DNA from: Paenibacillus donghaensis | Lineage (GTDB): Bacteria; Bacillota; Bacilli; Paenibacillales; Paenibacillaceae | NCBI RefSeq assembly: GCF_002192415.1 | Contig: NZ_CP021780.1 | Coordinates: 1,488,001 to 1,552,000, forward strand | DNA length: 64,000 bases | Direction: 5' to 3' | In this document: positions 5,570 to 51,909 of the stretch, one piece after another | Position numbering within the stretch: position 1 is the stretch's first letter | Layout of the letters: each line of letters starts with the position of its first letter | Program-made: the position numbers and the translations under genes | Notes under the pieces: model-generated | Database searches by the model: none | What the model saw: the letters and a program-made list of their open reading frames with translations, nothing else | What the model was told of the DNA's origin: nothing

Positions 5570-5642
5570 GTTATAAATGTTGAGTTTGATGGGAGGAATG
5601 GTATGTTGCCTGAAATGTGTGAAGTAAAAAGATGCAGTTTCG

Positions 5643-5960
5643 GTTGCTACTTAGCTCCCGATAAGGATGTACAAGGCTACACTAGAACTTTTAGAGAAAT
5701 TAGATGCGAAACTGCATCTAATTTCAGCTGAAACTCATGTTAACGGGCAAATAAGTGCAAATCTGCAACTAATCTCGAGTAAACCGCTTCTTGAGCGCTC
5801 CAAATCCGAAATTAGATGCGCTTTCGCACTTATTTGCTCCAAAACGGAAAAAATCAGCGAATTAGATGCGTATTTGCACTTAAATCGGTGGGTGCTCTGA
5901 TGTGGCAATCCAGCAGCTAAGTCTTTGCGGCTCATATCCTGCGAAGGCCTAAGCAGTAAC
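5643..5960 (+). mobile_element. Tetrad element copy A (full length, 318 bp)
   Basis: Non-coding element with inverted ends GTTGCTACTTAGC (5643-5655) and CCTAAGCAGTAAC (5948-5960). It is flanked by a near-perfect 8-bp duplication, CAGTTTCG at 5635-5642 and CAGTTTCA at 5961-5968. Inside are four 20-bp palindromic units starting at 5701, 5752, 5813 and 5862 (spacing 51, 61, 49); the first is TAGATGCGAAACTGCATCTA. Joining the flanks rebuilds another unit (AGATG-CAGTTTCG-CAACTA), so this copy sits inside a unit of an older copy. Short open frames across it are by-products of the repeats. This is the reference copy for the family. Confidence 0.8.
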
Positions 5961-6019
5961 CAGTTTCACAACTAATTGTTCGGCCCCCTAGTGATGGAGC
6001 TGAGTCTGTGTAGTTATAT

Positions 6020-10123: not shown

Positions 10124-10390
10124 GGTACTATTTAGGTCCCAGGAAGGATATGGGCTGTTGCCCTGGAGCTTTCAGAGAAATTAAGTGCGAAACTGCAACT
10201 AATTTCAAGTAAAACTGGACAGAAACGCTCAAACGTTGAATTTAGTTGCATATTTGCATCTATTTACTCCAAATCGAAAAAAAACCGTAAATTAGATGTA
10301 GATTCGCAACTAAATCGCCAGATCTTACTTTTGAAACCATTAGTAGCTGAGTCTTCGATGTCCATATCATACGAGGGCCTAAGTAGTAAC
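10124..10390 (+). mobile_element. Tetrad element copy B (267 bp, one unit missing)
   Basis: Inverted ends GGTACTATTTAGG (10124-10136) and CCTAAGTAGTAAC (10378-10390), flanked by TGCAATAC (10116-10123) and TGCAATAT (10391-10398), a 7/8 target duplication. Only three palindromic units remain, starting at 10182, 10243 and 10293 (spacing 61 and 50). The total length is 51 bp shorter than copy A, exactly one unit-to-unit step. It sits directly after the terminator at 10081. Confidence 0.78.
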
Positions 10391-26999: not shown

Positions 27000-27011
27000 C
27001 TTAATGTTTTA

Positions 27012-27111
27012 TAAGATGAACTTAAGAATGCTGAGGTGGAGTTGTCAGAAAGCCTGGTGCATAGGGCTACCCCGGCAACTCCGGATTTAACATTCTTAAG
27101 TTCACGTTCTA
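27012..27111 (+). mobile_element. TA-targeting MITE, copy 1
   Basis: 100-bp element with long terminal inverted repeats: TAAGATGAACTTAAGAATG at the left and CATTCTTAAGTTCACGTTCTA at the right. It is flanked by TA at 27010-27011 and 27112-27113. Inner arms GGAGTTGTC and GGCAACTCC also pair. It is non-coding. Related copies are at 30431, 51806 and (half) 40494. Confidence 0.8.
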
Positions 27112-27126
27112 TAGATGGAAGATGGA

Positions 27127-29119: not shown

Positions 29120-29507
29120 GTTACTTCTTAGATCCCAGAGAGGATTTAGATGGTGCTCTATAACGTTCGGAGCAATTAGATGCGAATCTGGTTACTACTT
29201 AGGTCCAGCGTGAATTTAGAATGTTGCCTGGAATGTTCGGAGCAAATAGATGTAAAACTGCAACTAAATTCCGCTGGATCACCAACCAACGGATGAATAA
29301 GTGCGATTGTGCAACTAATTTTGAGTAAATCAAGCTTATTTCGCTCAGAAGGCCAAATTAGATGCCTTTTTGCATCTGTTTTGTTCAATGAAGGAAAAAT
29401 TCGTAAATTAAATGCACTTTCGCAACTAATCGGCGGATTGGACTTATGAAACTATCACGGAACTGAGTTTTCGATGTTCTCAACGTCCGAGGTTGCTTCG
29501 AACGCTC
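29120..29507 (+). mobile_element. Nested tetrad elements, copy C (right end lost)
   Basis: The outer copy begins at 29120 (GTTACTTCTTAGATCC); its first unit starts at 29177. That unit is cut after TAGATG-CGAATCTG by an inner copy beginning GTTACTACTTAGG at 29191. The inner copy has units at 29248, 29299, 29359 and 29409 (spacing 51, 60, 50). Its right end, expected near 29507, is degenerate after CGTCCGAGG. The region 28978-29547 holds no credible gene. Confidence 0.7.
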
Positions 29508-30430: not shown

Positions 30431-30529
30431 TAAGATGAACTTAAGAATGAAGCGGTGGAGTTGTCAGAATGCCTGGTGCATAGGGCTATCGGACAACTCC
30501 TAATATAACATGTTTAAGTTCACGTTCTA
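30431..30529 (+). mobile_element. TA-targeting MITE, copy 2
   Basis: 99-bp element with TAAGATGAACTTAAGAATG at the left and GTTCACGTTCTA at the right, inner arms GGAGTTGTC and GACAACTCC. The right flank is TA. It lies 28 bp upstream of the AlkC-like gene, so it could affect its promoter or carry it. Confidence 0.8.
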
Positions 30530-30587
30530 TAGCCTGAAGCATACCGTGGAATAGGTGACTTAAGCTGTAATCCCGATTACAACTCCA

Positions 30588-40353: not shown

Positions 40354-40493
40354 ATGAGAGAAAAATCTGCGGTGCGGGCCTGGATCATGTATGATTGGGC
40401 AAATTCGGCGTATGCGACAACGGTGTTGGCAGCGGTTCTGCCGATCTTTCACAGCTCCGTTGCGGCAGGAAGCCCCCTATGCATCAGAATTTC
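40354..40493 (+). pseudogene. N-terminal fragment of an MFS transporter (UMF1/Atg22-like)
   Basis: The frame from ATG 40354 reads [20 protein letters not shown] then [11 protein letters not shown], a very typical first membrane segment of UMF1-family transporters. After about 40 residues the similarity stops. Just downstream lies half a TA-MITE (40494) and then a tetrad element. No remaining part of the transporter is found in the window. The gene is a remnant cut by repeat activity; the promoter side abuts the IS element right end. Confidence 0.8.
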
Positions 40494-40529
40494 TGGCAAC
40501 TCTACTGTTCCATTCTTAAGTTCATCTTA
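40494..40529 (-). mobile_element. TA-targeting MITE, half copy
   Basis: GGCAACTC followed by CATTCTTAAGTTCATCTTA matches the terminal half of copies 1-3 and is followed by TA. The other half is absent, replaced by the MFS fragment. Confidence 0.7.
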
Positions 40530-40545
40530 TATAGCCGGAAATGTG

Positions 40546-41132
40546 GTCCCTACTTAGGACTCCGTATGATAAGAACACTTCCGAATTAGTTGCGAAACTG
40601 CATCTATTTAGCCGTTTTTTCCTGTGTTGGAGGAAATAAGTGCGAAAACGCACCTAATTTAGGATTTTGAGCGTAATAAGCTTGCTTTACTTGAATTTAG
40701 ATGCAGATATGGTTACTACTTAGGACCCTGCGACACTCCAAGCCCTTGAACTAGGTAACCTGCATTTTAGCGGACCGTATAGCCCCTATTTCCTCCTATC
40801 TGCGATCTTTTGAAGTCTTACGGACCGTATAGCCCCTAAGTCGTCAAAACAGGCTCAAAAGCGAGGGTTTTCTGTGATATAGAGGCTCCTGGGTCCGTTA
40901 ATCCTGCAAAACGGCCTATGTACAGCAAATAGAGGCTCCTGAGTCCGCAACCGTCTGAAATCGAAGCGAGGGTTACGAGCGAAGAGGGCTAGGGGACCTA
41001 AGTAGTAACCAGATATGCACTTATTATCCTGATAATGGACGTTTCGGCTGAAATTAGTTGCAGTTTCGCATCTAATTCCACTGAAGGTTCCAGGGCAACA
41101 CTCTAAATCCTAGCTGGAGCCTAAGCGGTAAA
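40546..41132 (-). mobile_element. Tetrad element copy D, interrupted by a second element
   Basis: Ends GTCCCTACTTAGG (40546) and CCTAAGCGGTAAA (41120-41132), flanked by a perfect 8-bp duplication GAAATGTG at 40538-40545 and 41133-41140. Units start at 40587, 40637, 40698 (interrupted) and 41055. After removing the inner insert and one duplication the spacing is 50, 61, 51 and the length 281 bp. Compared with copy A it is inverted and lacks about 37 bp in one arm. The 40530-41316 region has no intact gene. Confidence 0.82.
40712..41009 (+). mobile_element. Variant tetrad element nested in copy D
   Basis: 298-bp insert with ends GTTACTACTTAGG (40712) and CCTAAGTAGTAAC (40997-41009), flanked by a perfect 8-bp duplication CAGATATG at 40704-40711 and 41010-41017. 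Rejoining rebuilds the unit TAGATGCAGATATGCACTTA. Its own units differ from the main family: CGGACCGTATAGCCCCTATT at 40771, a near copy at 40821, and inverted ATAGAGGCTCCTGGGTCCGT at 40879 and 40929 (spacing 50, 58, 50). Confidence 0.82.
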
Positions 41133-41316
41133 GAAATGTGAGAACAAGCCTCTCTTCCTATAGCGGAAGAGGGGCTTGTTTGGTGAGGTATGTGTTGCTG
41201 CTTAGACTCCTTGGCTTCTGATATAGCTGTTAGATTCTAAGGAGTAGCTACCTTGAATCCCTATTCTGAGAGCAACTAGCGGTAAGAAATCCCTCTAATA
41301 TGTCACAACCGTATCC

Positions 41317-42485: not shown

Positions 42486-45400
42486 TTGAACCCAACAGGA
42501 AAAACTATGATCTCTATTCTGCTAGCCGCTGAAATGCTGCTTGGCACCACGCTCGCAGCCGGTTCATCCGTTGCAGCCAATGCTGCCCCAGCCGGTGCTC
42601 CATATACAGCCGAGGGCAATTATGATGTGAAGGTTCCCCACGTAATTATTAACCAAATTTATGGCGGTGGCGATGCCAAGACCACGGGCGGCTACTTCTC
42701 CTCAGGCTACATCGAGCTATATAACCCAACGGACTCCGATATTCAATTAAACGGCTGGGCCCTGCAATATTCCGATCCGACGATGAAAGGGCAGTGGAGC
42801 AAGCTGGACCTCAGCGGTACCATTAAGGCACAGTCCTCTTACCTCATTATAGACGGTAAAAGCAATCCGGAATATCAGATCGATATCCGTGGCTGGGGTG
42901 ACCAGAGCTGGCCGGAGCAGATTTTTTATCATAAAGGCATGAAGGTTGTCCTGCTCAAGGGTACGGAACTGCTGCAGGCGGCTAACCCATTCCTCGACAA
43001 AACCGCGGATTACGTGGACATGATCGGCACGGCCGGCAATGATGAAGGGCTGACCATTGACGGCTATGAAGGCGACTATCCGACCGGCAAAACGGCAGGC
43101 ACCTCCAAGCAGAAATCCGTCCGCCGCGACAGCTTCGCCGATACGGACCATAATAAAAATGACACAAAGCAGATCAGCTTCGATTCGCTTAACGCTGCAG
43201 AGTTCAGCAGGCTGAAGCCCCATAGCAGTGCTGACGGACAATGGAGCTTGACAGTGCCGGAGCTGGGGATTTCCACATCCAGCTTGCCAGAGGCGAGCGC
43301 GGGTGCACCTTATGCTGTGACGCTGGCCGTATACGGCGGACTGAAGCCTTACAGCTTCGAGGCGACTGGTCTGCCGGAGGGTCTAGCCATAGACAGTCAA
43401 TCTGGCCAGATCAGCGGAACCCCAGCTGCCATGGGAACGGCAACAGTCAGCGTCTCCGTATACGATGCTTCCAAACCGAGTGTAAAGGCTCAGGCTGATT
43501 ATTCGCTGAAGGTAAATGAACCGTTAACGGCGGACAGGCTCAGCATCACCAAGATTGGCGGGTACGCGGTAGGTACAACCAGTGAAGACGGCGGGGTGGC
43601 AGAGATCGTCCGCTACAACCCGGACAATGGCAGATTCTATCTGGTGAATGGTGCTTCCCAGCCGGCTACGGTGGATATTGTCAACCTGAAGGATGGGACT
43701 CAGCCTGAGAAGGAAACCAGCATCAACGTAGAGCAGCTGTCAGAGACAGCGGGATTCACCTACGGGGACCTGACCAGTCTGGACATTAACACGGCCACCG
43801 GACGGATTGCGATCGCGGTGCAGGAGGAAGATGCCATGAAACCGGGCAAAGTGCTTGTGCTGGACTATGAAGGCAAGCTGCTGGCCGAGTACCCCACAGG
43901 AGTGCAGCCCGACATGGTCAAATATACGGCGGATGGCCGTTATATCCTGACGGCTGACGAAGCAGAGCCGCGTACTCTGGCCGGTGACCCGGAGGGCAGT
44001 GTGACTATTATAGATACACTGAGCGGCAAGGTGACGTCTGTGAAATTTGACCAGCCGGAGATTATTGACGATTCGGTGTATATCCGCGGTGCGGTAGACC
44101 CCGAGACGAAGCTGATTACAGGCAAGGGTTCCAAGGCTGACGCTGTGCGTGATCTGGAGCCGGAGTTCATTACCCTGTCGGACGACCAGAAGACAGCGTA
44201 CGTCTCTCTGCAGGAGAACAATGCGATTGCGACGATTGACATTGCAGGCGGGGCTGCAGTTTCGGTCAAGGGTCTCGGAACGAAGGGTTTCAGCCTGGCA
44301 GGCAATGCTCTCGACCTGCTCAACGACGGCCAGATCAAGCTGGAGAATGTTCCTTTCCGTGGTCTCTACATGCCTGATGGAATCGACCAGTACACCACTG
44401 GAGGCACAACCTATCTGTTCACGGCAAACGAAGGCGATGCTACCGAATGGGACAGCATGGAGAATGCCAGCAAGATCGGGGACATGAAGGGGCTGCTGAA
44501 CCCCGCTTCACCTGCTGCACAATTCCTGAATGGCAGCAAGCTGTATGACAATGTGGAAGTGATGTCCGGGCTGGACAATGAGAGCCTGTATTTATACGGG
44601 GCGCGTTCCTTCTCCATCTGGGAGGCGGGTACGATGAAGCAGGTGTATGACAGCGGCAGCGATTTCGAGCGGATCACGGGTGAACGTCTGCCTGATTTTT
44701 TCAATGCCAGCAATACCAACACCACACTGGACAGCCGCAGCCAGAAAAAAGGACCGGAGCCTGAATACGTCAAGGTGGGCAAGGTGGGGCAGAAGGCGCT
44801 TGCGTTCATCGGCCTGGAGCGGATCGGCGGTCTCATGACCTATGATGTGACTGATCCGGCACAGGCGAGCTTCCTGAGCTATATCAATACCCGTGAATTT
44901 ACGCCCAAAAATAACCTCGCGACCGATACCGGGCCGGAGGGCATTGAGTTTATTCCGGCAGCAGCCAGCCCCAGCGGCTTGCCGCTTGTATTGGTAGCCA
45001 ATGAAGTTGGCGGCACGGTTGCGGTCTACCAGCTGAATGTGGCGAAGGTCTCGCTGGACCAAACAGCGGTCTCGCTTAAGGCCGGAGGAGAAGCGGTAAC
45101 TCTTCAGGCAACCGTGGTTCCGCCAGCTGGCGGAGATTCCGCGGTTAGCTGGACCTCCTCCAATCCGGCTGTGGCCGCTGTAAGCACCAGCGGAAGAGTA
45201 ACTCCGCTTGCGAAGGGAACTGCGGTGATCACTGCGGCCACCGCAGATGGATACGGCACTGCTGAAGCGGCAGTCGCGGTTGCCGCCGCTGATCCGGTGA
45301 TCCCAGTACCGGGAACGCCAGCACCAGGAACGCCAACACCGGGAACGCCAACACCGGGAACACCAGCACCAGGAACGCCAACACCGGGAACACCAGCACC

Positions 45401-46727
45401 AGGAACGCCAACACCGGATCAGGGAAATCCTGTGCCGTGGATTCCGGCACCATCAGCTCCGGTGCCTTCAGCAACCCCTGCACCAGGAACCCCTGCGTCT
45501 GCTCCAGGGATCATCAATAACGGCAGCCAGGTGATTGTTGAGCTTGAACCCGCTGCCGATACAGCTGGTACTCTGCTGGCAGCCGCTACGCTGGAGCAGG
45601 TGGAAGCCGCCCTTAAGGCAGCTCCTGCTGGTGGCGGAGAACTGGTTCTACGCTCGGCGGCTTCGGTGGGAGGAGCGGGAATGAAGCTGAGCCTGCCTGC
45701 AGCGGCTGTTCAAGCTATCGCCAGCAGCGGAACGACAGCCCTAATTGTAGAGACGGGTAGCGGCAGCTTGTCTCTGGACCGCAGTGCGATCTCTGCGGTT
45801 AACGCAGCGGCGAACGGGGAGATGGTTACGCTGACCTTCACGGCGGGTGATGGCGGCACAGACTGGAGCAAGCTGACTCCTGTAGGCCAGGCAGCAGCCC
45901 AGGCGAAGATTGGCAACCGTCCTATCCTTGAAGTGGGGCTGCAGGCAGGAAGCCGCACGCTGTCCAGCCTCGGCTCAGGCACTGCGCAGCTAAGCCTCGC
46001 CTATCCAGCAACGTCCGCTGAAGATCCGCTGGCAGTCGTTGGCTATCGCTTGACGGAAGCGGGAGAACTTGCCGTAATCCCAGGCAGCAGCTATGACAGC
46101 ATGGACGGAACCTTGAGCCTCACGGCACAGCTTGGCACGACGTATGCCGTAGGCTACAATCCCGCAGCGTTCAGCGATATTTCCGCAAGCTTTGCCAGGG
46201 ATTCGATTAAATACCTGGCGGCGCGGGAAGTGATCCACGGAATCGGCGAGGACCGATTTAGCGGCAAAGCCAAGCTGACCCGTGCTGATGCCGCCCTGCT
46301 GCTGGCGCAGCTGGCAGGACAGGCTGCGGAGGCCGGAACAACCGGCTCATTCGGCGATGTGCCGACAGAGGCTTATTACGCTGATGCAGTGGCGTGGGCT
46401 TCCGCCAGCGGCATTGTGAACGGCGTCGGCGAGGGACGCTTCGACCCGTCAGCCGAGATTACCCGCGAGCAGCTGGCTGTGCTGCTGGTTCGCTTCGTGG
46501 TGTGGATGGACTGGAGCCTTCCGGCCGGCGGCGCAGCCGCTGGGTTCGCGGATCAACAGTCCATCAGCCCTTATGCCGCCGCTGCTGCGGGCACGCTGCA
46601 GCAGGCAGGCATCCTCAGCGGCAGACCCGCTCCGGGTGCCGCTGCCCTAAACTTCGCGCCGCAGGACTCTGCTTCGCGCGAAGAAACGGCCCATCTGCTG
46701 GCTAAATTGCTGAAGCTGGGCCGGTAA
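42486..46727 (+). CDS. SLH-anchored surface protein with lamin-tail and choice-of-anchor I domains
   Basis: Very large secreted protein (1413 residues). Start chosen at TTG 42486 with AGGAGTG 8 bases upstream; ATG 42453 would add 11 residues. A signal peptide (MISILLAAEMLLGTTLAAGS...ANA) is followed in order by: a lamin-tail domain (about 50-170, VIINQIYGGGDA, YIELYNPTDSDIQL); an Ig-like putative-Ig domain (about 260-350); a choice-of-anchor I beta-propeller (about 360-850, with PDGIDQY and GPEGIEFIP); a bacterial Ig-like group 2 domain (about 855-935); a Pro/Gly/Thr linker; an Ala-rich domain; and three SLH repeats (FSDISASFARDSIKYLA, FGDVPTEAYYADAVAWA, FADQQSISPYAAAAAGTL) that bind pyruvylated wall polymer. 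The function is unknown; choice-of-anchor I proteins are often linked to phosphate or nucleotide hydrolysis outside the cell. A strong terminator follows. Confidence 0.9.
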   Translation: MNPTGKTMISILLAAEMLLGTTLAAGSSVAANAAPAGAPYTAEGNYDVKVPHVIINQIYGGGDAKTTGGYFSSGYIELYNPTDSDIQLNGWALQYSDPTMKGQWSKLDLSGTIKAQSSYLIIDGKSNPEYQIDIRGWGDQSWPEQIFYHKGMKVVLLKGTELLQAANPFLDKTADYVDMIGTAGNDEGLTIDGYEGDYPTGKTAGTSKQKSVRRDSFADTDHNKNDTKQISFDSLNAAEFSRLKPHSSADGQWSLTVPELGISTSSLPEASAGAPYAVTLAVYGGLKPYSFEATGLPEGLAIDSQSGQISGTPAAMGTATVSVSVYDASKPSVKAQADYSLKVNEPLTADRLSITKIGGYAVGTTSEDGGVAEIVRYNPDNGRFYLVNGASQPATVDIVNLKDGTQPEKETSINVEQLSETAGFTYGDLTSLDINTATGRIAIAVQEEDAMKPGKVLVLDYEGKLLAEYPTGVQPDMVKYTADGRYILTADEAEPRTLAGDPEGSVTIIDTLSGKVTSVKFDQPEIIDDSVYIRGAVDPETKLITGKGSKADAVRDLEPEFITLSDDQKTAYVSLQENNAIATIDIAGGAAVSVKGLGTKGFSLAGNALDLLNDGQIKLENVPFRGLYMPDGIDQYTTGGTTYLFTANEGDATEWDSMENASKIGDMKGLLNPASPAAQFLNGSKLYDNVEVMSGLDNESLYLYGARSFSIWEAGTMKQVYDSGSDFERITGERLPDFFNASNTNTTLDSRSQKKGPEPEYVKVGKVGQKALAFIGLERIGGLMTYDVTDPAQASFLSYINTREFTPKNNLATDTGPEGIEFIPAAASPSGLPLVLVANEVGGTVAVYQLNVAKVSLDQTAVSLKAGGEAVTLQATVVPPAGGDSAVSWTSSNPAVAAVSTSGRVTPLAKGTAVITAATADGYGTAEAAVAVAAADPVIPVPGTPAPGTPTPGTPTPGTPAPGTPTPGTPAPGTPTPDQGNPVPWIPAPSAPVPSATPAPGTPASAPGIINNGSQVIVELEPAADTAGTLLAAATLEQVEAALKAAPAGGGELVLRSAASVGGAGMKLSLPAAAVQAIASSGTTALIVETGSGSLSLDRSAISAVNAAANGEMVTLTFTAGDGGTDWSKLTPVGQAAAQAKIGNRPILEVGLQAGSRTLSSLGSGTAQLSLAYPATSAEDPLAVVGYRLTEAGELAVIPGSSYDSMDGTLSLTAQLGTTYAVGYNPAAFSDISASFARDSIKYLAAREVIHGIGEDRFSGKAKLTRADAALLLAQLAGQAAEAGTTGSFGDVPTEAYYADAVAWASASGIVNGVGEGRFDPSAEITREQLAVLLVRFVVWMDWSLPAGGAAAGFADQQSISPYAAAAAGTLQQAGILSGRPAPGAAALNFAPQDSASREETAHLLAKLLKLGR
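45305..45420 (+). repeat. 12-bp tandem repeat encoding PGTP linker
   Basis: About nine copies of the 12-bp unit encoding Pro-Gly-Thr-Pro with Ala or Thr, inside the surface-protein gene. The near-identical DNA makes copy number likely to vary by slippage. Confidence 0.85.
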
Positions 46728-49550: not shown

Positions 49551-49623
49551 TTAAACCAACCAACGAACCAACGAACCAACTCCTCTAAGCACCCGTCCAG
49601 CCACAATTTCAAGTGCAAGACTA

Positions 49624-49862
49624 GTTACTTATAAGATCCAGCTAGGAGTTAAAAGGTTATTCTGGAACGTTTGGAGCAATTAGATGCGAAACTGCAACTA
49701 AAATCCGCCGAATCGTGACTCAGCAGGCGTTTAAGTGCGATTCTGCAACTAATTTCGAGTAAATCTGGAATGGGACGCTCAAAAGACGAAATTAAGTGCC
49801 TTTTTGCATCTATTACCTCCAAAACGGAAAAAAACCGTAAATTAGATGCACTTTCGCAACTA
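49624..49862 (+). mobile_element. Tetrad element copy E (right end lost)
   Basis: The left end GTTACTTATAAGA starts at 49624. Units start at 49681, 49732, 49793 and 49843 (spacing 51, 61, 50). The right arm after 49862 does not match other copies. The bases before the left end, AAGTG-CAAGACTA, look like the first part of another unit, as if this copy too entered a unit. Confidence 0.7.
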
Positions 49863-51441: not shown

Positions 51442-51738
51442 ATTACTACTTAGACCTCGGTAGGATGCGACCATCGAAGACTCAGCTTCATGTTAGTTTC
51501 GTAAGCCCAGTCCACCGATTTAGTTGCGAAACTGCATCTAATTAGCCGATTTTTTCCGTTTTGGAAGAAATAGATGCTCAAACGCATCTAATTTGAGCGT
51601 TTGAGCGTTACAGACCCGATTTACTCGAGATTAGTTGCAGCTTTGCACTTATTCGCCTCGTGATAGGAGTTTCAGCTGAATTTAGTTGCAGTTTCGCATC
51701 TATTTACTCCGTACGTTCTAGGGGACCTATGTAGTAAC
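51442..51738 (-). mobile_element. Tetrad element copy F (inner)
   Basis: Left end ATTACTACTTAGA (51442), right end CCTATGTAGTAAC (51726-51738). Units start at 51521, 51571, 51632 and 51682 (spacing 50, 61, 50). It is oriented opposite to copy A. The right flank CAGATCTG-CAACTA is the second part of a unit from another copy. Confidence 0.75.
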
Positions 51739-51909
51739 CAGATCTGCAACTAATTGCTCCAAACGTTCCACAGCAACCTTCTAAATCCTCGCGGGAACCT
51801 AAGTATAGAACGTGAACTTAAGAATGTAACATTCGGAGTTGCCGGGAAGCCTTACATAGCAGGCGCTGCCAACTCAGGCCTTCATTCTTAAGTACATCCT
51901 TATAGTAAC
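51739..51909 (-). mobile_element. Remnant of outer tetrad copy, interrupted by MITE copy 3
   Basis: Contains the last 14 bp of a unit (51739-51752) and the 58-bp arm of a tetrad element ending CCTAAGTA...GTAAC. The end is split by the MITE at 51806-51902. Removing the MITE and one TA restores the terminal CCTAAGTAGTAAC. Confidence 0.75.
51806..51902 (-). mobile_element. TA-targeting MITE, copy 3
   Basis: 97-bp element with TAGAACGTGAACTTAAGAATG at one end and CATTCTTAAGTACATCCTTA at the other, flanked by TA (51804-51805 and 51903-51904). It sits inside the terminal repeat of a tetrad element, so the uninterrupted target sequence is known from other copies. Confidence 0.85.

Follow-up and report, generated by a model that had tools for sequence, protein, structure and literature searches.

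An IS66-family insertion sequence of the ISBst12-like group very probably moves its MITEs into the centres of 20-bp palindromic units in Paenibacillus donghaensis, and a four-unit module carried within one type of MITE (MITE-A) feeds the growth of the family by nesting. The evidence comes from insertions and their duplications, from the precision with which units are split, from nests of elements, from the transposase family, and from the architecture of the module, here and elsewhere. We call the window the whole stretch of DNA that was analysed (64,000 nucleotides). Its most complete example is a MITE inside a unit of another MITE, with the following features.

40546..41132, unstranded: outer module-bearing MITE of type A, holding the split unit; decayed ends GTCCCTACTTAGG / CCTAAGCGGTAAA
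40587..40606, unstranded: outer-module unit TAGTTGCGAAACTGCATCTA, 50 bp ahead of the next unit
40637..40656, unstranded: outer-module unit TAAGTGCGAAAACGCACCTA, 61 bp ahead of the split unit
40698..40711, unstranded: split unit, left part: arm TAGATG (40698-40703), then duplication CAGATATG (40704-40711)
40712..41009, unstranded: B-type MITE (the "second" type) of 298 bp, with 13-bp inverted ends, no transposase and no TAGATG-type units
40769..40949, unstranded: four internal sites of the B-type MITE, starting at 40769, 40819, 40880 and 40930 (spacing 50-61-50 bp)
41010..41023, unstranded: split unit, right part: duplication CAGATATG (41010-41017), then arm CACTTA (41018-41023)
41055..41074, unstranded: outer-module unit TAGTTGCAGTTTCGCATCTA, 51 bp past the split unit, not counting the insert and one duplication

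When the insert and one CAGATATG are removed, the unit TAGATG-CAGATATG-CACTTA (6-8-6) is restored with a perfect 8-bp duplication. Direct reading of the sequence thus bears out the claim of an earlier note on this DNA, that the duplication at 40704/41010 rebuilds such a unit when collapsed. The 13-bp ends of the insert, GTTACTACTTAGG/CCTAAGTAGTAAC, are reverse complements of each other, and three siblings of the split unit were detected. The outer MITE has its own 8-bp duplication, GAAATGTG, which can be read directly at 40538-40545 and 41133-41140; it is not among the end pairs of the sample described below, which allow 2 end mismatches. The internal sites of the insert have arms unlike those of the A units, and their layout scores 24 (shuffles: mean 18.1, maximum 23), which is weak for one copy.

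Insertions and nests in the genome of P. donghaensis

The genome containing the window is a single contig of 8,542,333 bp, in which the exact 13-bp end occurs 307 times and its reversed control never. We sampled it with 120 stretches of 20 kb on a systematic grid, to which the window was added (2,440,310 bases in total, i.e. 2.44 Mb); a stretch that fell within the window was removed, and the overlapping part of another was masked. When gaps of 0-19 bp were scanned, an arm TAGATG, TAGTTG or TAAGTG was found exactly 8 bp from 58 of the 88 exact ends of the sample, at a gap of 7 from two of them, and at the other 18 gaps from none. With a looser pattern, and ends of at most one mismatch, 90/151 ends adjoin a half-unit. 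Intact units have the same three arm types and a strict 8-bp centre: 283 have a spacer of 8, and each other spacer from 4 to 12 is found 0-2 times.

Among 64 adjacent left-right end pairs, 24 show perfect duplications, 13 match at 7/8 bases, and 27 at fewer; the latter were left out of the insertion count. Adjacent and non-adjacent (nested) pairs, once conflicts were removed, gave 41 insertions whose duplications match at 7/8 or 8/8 bases (29 are perfect); 33 distinct duplications occur among them. The units rebuilt from them have no mismatch in the 12 arm bases in 22 cases, one in 6, two in 1, three in 4, and 5 to 8 in the remaining 8. The earlier note had proposed a test for enrichment of insertions at unit centres, and such an enrichment is what we found: 28/41 insertions rebuild a unit with at most one arm mismatch (random positions: 1.1e-4 per site) and 33/41 with at most three (1.7e-3). 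The note would have abandoned the idea had most insertions fallen outside units, and in this genome's sample 13/41 lie outside good units, 8 clearly so (at least 5 arm mismatches). All 28 duplications in good units run C...G, as does the unit centre, and 21 of the 29 perfect duplications lie in units with at most one arm mismatch. Slots within a module were assigned without strand information; we claim no slot preference, because this assignment cannot tell strand.

The inserted elements are mostly small. In 37 of the 41 insertions they measure 248-656 bp, with GTTACTACTTAGG-type ends (at most 2 mismatches) and 8-bp duplications, and some of the longer ones are nests. These short elements without transposase, with IS-type ends and duplication length, are MITEs of the ISBst12-like IS. 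We found three close copies of the transposase, two identical and one 86% identical, and a further match at 26% identity. The three close copies (3/3) lie in unit centres with perfect 8-bp duplications and contain no strict units. The one copy scanned matched Pfam DDE_Tnp_IS66 (1.9e-49) and NCBIfam transpos_IS66 (5.5e-92, 308.8 bits for a cut-off of 180). The IS is 1602-1627 bp long and is filled by one ORF of 501 or 509 aa, with no tnpA/tnpB. Other ORFs of at least 80 aa in the two 100%-identical copies overlap the transposase ORF on the opposite strand (for the third copy, ORFs were listed from 150 aa up). With its TnpC transposase, single ORF and 8-bp duplication, the mover fits, judging from its sequence, an ISBst12-like, one-ORF insertion sequence of the IS66 family.

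The same target is common to the IS and to MITEs of several inner types, and this produces nests. For example, in locus L035 an IS has entered a unit of a MITE, and this MITE in turn occupies a unit of a further MITE; for the outermost one we found the left end and one more unit, and no right end. The claim that the family grows by nesting is strongly supported.

Five junctions in the window had been put forward as independent cases of the same arrangement. Besides the focal one, the relevant features, to which we add a MITE outside any unit, are as follows.

5643..5960, unstranded: type A MITE inside a unit; duplications 5635-5642 / 5961-5968; own units starting at 5701, 5752, 5813 and 5863
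10124..10390, unstranded: type A MITE outside any unit; duplication TGCAATAC/TGCAATAT
29177..29203, unstranded: half-unit TAGATG-CGAATCTG (29177-29190) adjoining the exact left end GTTACTACTTAGG at 29191
49611..49636, unstranded: half-unit AAGTG-CAAGACTA (49611-49623) adjoining a degenerate left end
51442..51738, unstranded: type A MITE with half-unit CAGATCTG-CAACTA on its right (51739-51752) and an unmatched left flank

Two of the five are complete insertions, but the other three are single junctions only. The arrangement proposed at 5635 is confirmed by the element at 5643-5960, whose duplications CAGTTTCG/CAGTTTCA match at 7/8 bases. At 29177-29190, 49624 and 51738 the half-unit and the end are spaced as expected, but each case can be checked on one side only. 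A right partner was sought for the left end at 29191 and none was found. The left end at 49624 has 4/13 mismatches (by eye) and stands beside a module with units starting at 49681, 49732, 49793 and 49843. The flank of the left end at 51442 shares 1/8 bases with the right flank of that MITE.

The four-unit module and the targets of relatives

Modules consist of four units, whose starts are 51-61-50 bp apart in 64 of the 69 modules sampled. Their arm bases TA..TG are conserved at 0.99, a value partly built in because modules were chosen by their arms; conservation is 0.84 for the two variable arm bases, and 0.77 for both the six central bases and the spacers. Of the 69 modules, 54 have a transposon end (at most 2 mismatches) on one side or more, 18 of these being flanked on both, and the other 15 have none. 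B-type MITEs have a module of four other sites, at 50 (same direction), 61 (facing) and 50 bp (same direction). This claim draws on sample-wide spacing counts, which are clear; a single B- or C-type layout scores at or little above shuffles. The B-type sites, of the form AACGGAC...CCCCTA and arranged two facing two at 50-61-50, number 106 in the sample; no end among the 151 lies beside a B-type half-site, and no insertion into B sites was found, so that these sites serve as a negative control. A third MITE interior, with TAGGGA..CTACCGCTA sites, was observed at L048:5884-6163, L104:6294-6573 and L125:6093-6468. Its spacing may be similar (51-60-51 in L125), with a score not above the best shuffles.

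Several identities of units and modules were considered and rejected. Units are not RNA hairpins: covariation within unit hairpins scores 0.072 (shuffled mean 0.068, with 139/500 shuffles as high), the window has 0 Rfam matches at the gathering threshold, and a search of four module loci at E <= 1 brought up nothing but three matches below threshold, to unrelated families. Pairing across units (1:4 and 2:3) does exceed shuffles (0/500 as high), a signal that relatedness or dyad symmetry at the DNA level can also produce. The module is not a simple fold-back, since the identity between its halves is 0.40, equal within and between modules (0.35 for the outer spacers). Nor is it a CRISPR array with unique acquired spacers: spacers are homologous across the 69 modules (mean column identity 0.77), hence not acquired one by one. 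Finally, perfectly palindromic units are not preferred, as they make up 2/22 of the entered units and 33/283 of the intact ones (small numbers).

We then looked for the module in other genomes. The single-unit pattern has 835 sites here, 0-9 in each of 60 congeners, and 123 (control: 8) in G109, a genome of another genus. Units in G109 are spaced by 50/51 and 61 bp, their spacers vary from one subfamily to another, and no transposon end (allowing 3 mismatches) was found in 15 of the 17 G109 stretches examined. Built from 20 modules of this genome and 8 of G109, a covariance model (R1) of the module matches 192 of 394 family genomes at E <= 1e-3, in 17/19 genera; about 127 of the 394 have a best match of 1e-8 or better (hand count). 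These per-genome matches are floors, because at most 6 candidates a genome were scored under strict filters. Outside the family, it matches 2 genomes of at most 294 (299 were drawn from the phylum, at least 5 of them family members), with a best match of 1.5e-8. Weak matches to the model may be false positives: neither the family loci L295 and L299 (E about 1e-6) nor the outside-family loci L294 and L297 show a clean row of palindromes.

The layout was then fitted freely. Of 29 loci from other genomes, 19 score at least 28 (L264, from this genome, scores 32.1), whereas L270, L272, L292 and L293 do not fit four units; none of the 29 has transposon ends within roughly 3 kb. Among 62 neighbouring distances around 29 loci matched by R1, 25 are at 51, 13 at 50 and 12 at 61 bp, a spacing partly built in because R1 was made from 51-61-50 alignments. 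Support independent of R1 comes from loci reached via the IS (L169, L178, L180, L181) and via single-unit matches. The modules observed at L246-L260 (G109) and L265-L293 (other genomes) have four palindromes at 50/51-61-50/51 bp and free spacers, mostly without transposon ends. Since it is found in many family genomes without these ends, the module is wider than the MITE, and it is probably older.

The exact transposon end is present in 60 of the 394 family genomes, and a relative of the transposase at 1e-60 in 4 of 100 genomes of the genus, P. donghaensis included. Elements of G109 (4/4) and of P. faecis (4/4) lie in palindromes that resemble the units and whose unit scores are in the top 0.7% of random positions. 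Palindromes with other arms are the sites of the IS in Cohnella cholangitidis, Cohnella luojiensis and Paenibacillus eucommiae; they again stand in arrays, at 51, 51-52 and 52-62-51 bp, and the direct repeat reads as 9 bp. In the first of these species (L178, L180) the IS splits a 21-bp palindrome contained in 51-bp tandem repeats, again with a direct repeat that reads as 9 and not 8 bp. Ends could be resolved in 25 of 80 relative loci; the others were dropped for contig ends, lack of a perfect duplication or lack of an intact ORF, seven Alicyclobacillus copies among them. Overall, the relatives account for 24 distinct insertions in other family genomes; about 13 of these hit unit-like or array palindromes and 11 lie elsewhere, counting once the elements seen in two loci and leaving out L135 (one end) and the MITEs L153-L157. 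A similar sister palindrome lies at array distance in 10 of the relatives' insertions (L151 has a dissimilar one), and a clean duplication is lacking in one insertion of each group (L139 in palindromes, L149 not). Ten distant IS66 relatives from archaea, Chloroflexota and others (10 of 11 were scored, L209 being left out) have palindromes at chance level, with scores of 1-5 for a null mean of 2.5.

Array-targeting transposases occupy three places in the tree, all inside the Paenibacillaceae branch. A single clade is rejected (AU p 0.0002, on a quick tree and for a group named after the data were seen). Hence, either the specificity has arisen or disappeared repeatedly, or it varies with the host. 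These results qualify the earlier idea that the family targets its own units. Unit-centre targeting is strongly supported and holds for the family, but not for each element, as the insert at 40712-41009 has no internal unit; moreover, four-unit modules exist without transposon ends in other genera, and relatives enter those or other regularly spaced palindromes with different arms.

Target choice and alternative explanations

The exact placement, the sparing of B sites and the identity of duplications with unit centres argue that the target is chosen at the integration step. The transposase, or something acting with it, would select the centre of TA-NN-TG-C-N6-G-CA-NN-TA, and insertion splits the 20-bp unit 6-8-6 and duplicates its central 8 bp, presumably through an 8-bp staggered cut around the unit axis. 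The lack of preference for perfect palindromes and of hairpin covariation argues for a protein reading two inverted half-sites on duplex DNA. This could be the transposase itself, perhaps reading the two arms as a dimer, or a host protein, and the diversity of arms among relatives is compatible with either. In P. donghaensis, a module lies between the transposon's ends, and MITE-A may have arisen by capturing one. When a MITE-A enters a unit, it spends one target and adds four. The family thus feeds its own growth by nesting, and self-targeting may have driven its expansion.

It is possible, although doubtful, that the transposase is guided to the phased arrays by a host protein that binds them, in which case the arms would differ among species as the protein does. 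This would account for arrays that hold spacings of 50-52 and 60-62 bp while their spacers can be unrelated, and for related transposases entering different arms in different species, but B-type modules of equal geometry are not entered here. We consider it unlikely that DNA shape (a cruciform or hairpin formed by the palindrome), and not arm sequence, determines the target. Insertion does fall at the symmetry axis, and relatives enter palindromes with quite different arms (TAACGG..CCGCTA, TAACGATG..CATCGTTA and TAGTTA..GAACTA). However, each IS may have its own arm specificity, perfect palindromes are not favoured (on the small numbers above), and arm pairs show no compensatory change beyond shuffles.

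Near-random insertion, with nested copies surviving because they are harmless to genes, is a very improbable source of the pattern. Nests within intergenic repeats should do no harm, and about a third of the insertions are outside good units, but placement is exact to the base, essentially at one of 20 gaps, and the B-type sites of equally harmless MITEs are not entered. Such safe-haven selection may nevertheless add to the unit-centre pattern. Gene conversion or recombination between units, which the earlier note had named as a potential refutation, has very little chance of having made the flanking half-units: L019 and L072 have exact ends with two good but different half-units, and the 27 end pairs without a good duplication fit later recombination between copies, but these processes do not yield perfect duplications equal to the centre of the rebuilt unit. 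The half-units are equally improbable as an extended inverted end of the element, despite their one fixed distance on most ends, since the 8 bp beside the ends vary among copies and agree across the two sides of each copy, identical ends are also found without half-units, and many interrupted units retain sister units at 50/51/61 bp.

The best reading is thus a REP-targeting-like IS, new for IS66, whose MITEs have captured its landing platform. Spacings of 51 and 61 bp correspond closely to 5 and 6 helix turns, which from general DNA geometry would suggest helical phasing. A broader reading is possible but tentative. Palindrome arrays of Paenibacillaceae (sites of about 20 bp at 51/61 bp, with variable arms and spacers and constant geometry) would be a family-wide, helically phased class that has no name so far and binds a conserved nucleoprotein assembly, on which a lineage of ISBst12-like transposons would have evolved to land. 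Here, the platform would have been packaged in MITEs, such that the supply of targets grows with each jump, making an autocatalytic, host-sparing transposon.

Related systems and neighbouring repeats

Insertion sequences that split REP palindromes are already known from the IS3, IS110 and IS4 families: PMC1525189 describes IS1397, ISKpn1 and ISPsy8 (IS3), IS621 (IS110) and ISRm22 (IS4) as targeting REP/PU palindromes. As here, dispersed intergenic palindromes are entered with short direct repeats, and insertion at the symmetry axis, as in ISPsy8 and ISRm22, is known for such elements, which belong to several IS families (PMC1525189). The term IS66 does not occur in the main text of that article. 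The elements described here resemble this class in that most copies are inserted at the axis of a dispersed palindrome (28/41, and 3/3 transposase copies), but differ from it in their IS66 transposase, their 8-bp duplication, the four-site modules of fixed spacing, and the location of modules inside the IS's own MITEs.

IS1111 belongs to the IS110 family. In Coxiella burnetii it enters the GTAG palindrome of QMITE2, so that there too a palindrome inside a MITE is the target of an IS; PMC10969869 reports two IS copies in two MITE copies. Here, by contrast, the IS and the MITEs, which share their ends, insert into units of one MITE family, nests included. The ISBst12 group, e.g. ISDge4 with its ends GTGACTACTCAGCA / GTAACTGCTCAGCA, shares with our IS the single ORF, the 8-bp direct repeat and similar ends (PMC12898284). 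Palindrome targeting is a feature of the elements studied here, and the accessible part of PMC12898284 mentions no target palindrome for the group. CRISPR-like arrays also have palindromic repeats of about 20 bp at regular distances, but the present modules have four repeats at 51-61-50 with homologous spacers, and are dispersed in many copies. Mobile elements that enter their own kind are also known in bacteria as nested group II introns (twintrons), whose mobility is RNA-guided retrohoming. The likeness stops at this entry, as a DDE transposase and DNA palindromes are at work here.

Our literature search, which had few subscription papers within reach, turned up neither IS66 elements that insert into palindromes nor MITEs that insert into their own units, and the four-unit module was likewise absent from it. 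As far as it shows, the novelty lies in palindrome targeting by the IS66 family, which thereby joins those seen using palindromic repeats, in a target carried in many copies by the IS's own MITEs, and in the four-site module and its spread. Target choice usually limits the damage done by transposons. Self-feeding, host-sparing spread finds a clean natural model in an element that brings along the target it prefers and makes more of it with each jump, and a widespread repeat architecture of strict spacing and free sequence calls for a binding protein and a function.

Other repeats occur in the window and beyond. The site GAAATGTG-AGAATA/AGAACA is common to several MITE ends (40538-40545/41133-41140, L071:14130, L096:11809, L127:15074) and is perhaps a hot spot within another repeat family. 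Another interspersed family (TAAGATGAACTTAAGAATG...) is found at 27010-27121, 30431-30539, 40475-40541 and 51804-51864. Finally, a 15-bp tandem repeat of the CCGGGAACGCCAACA type at 45279-45428 possibly codes for a repetitive peptide.
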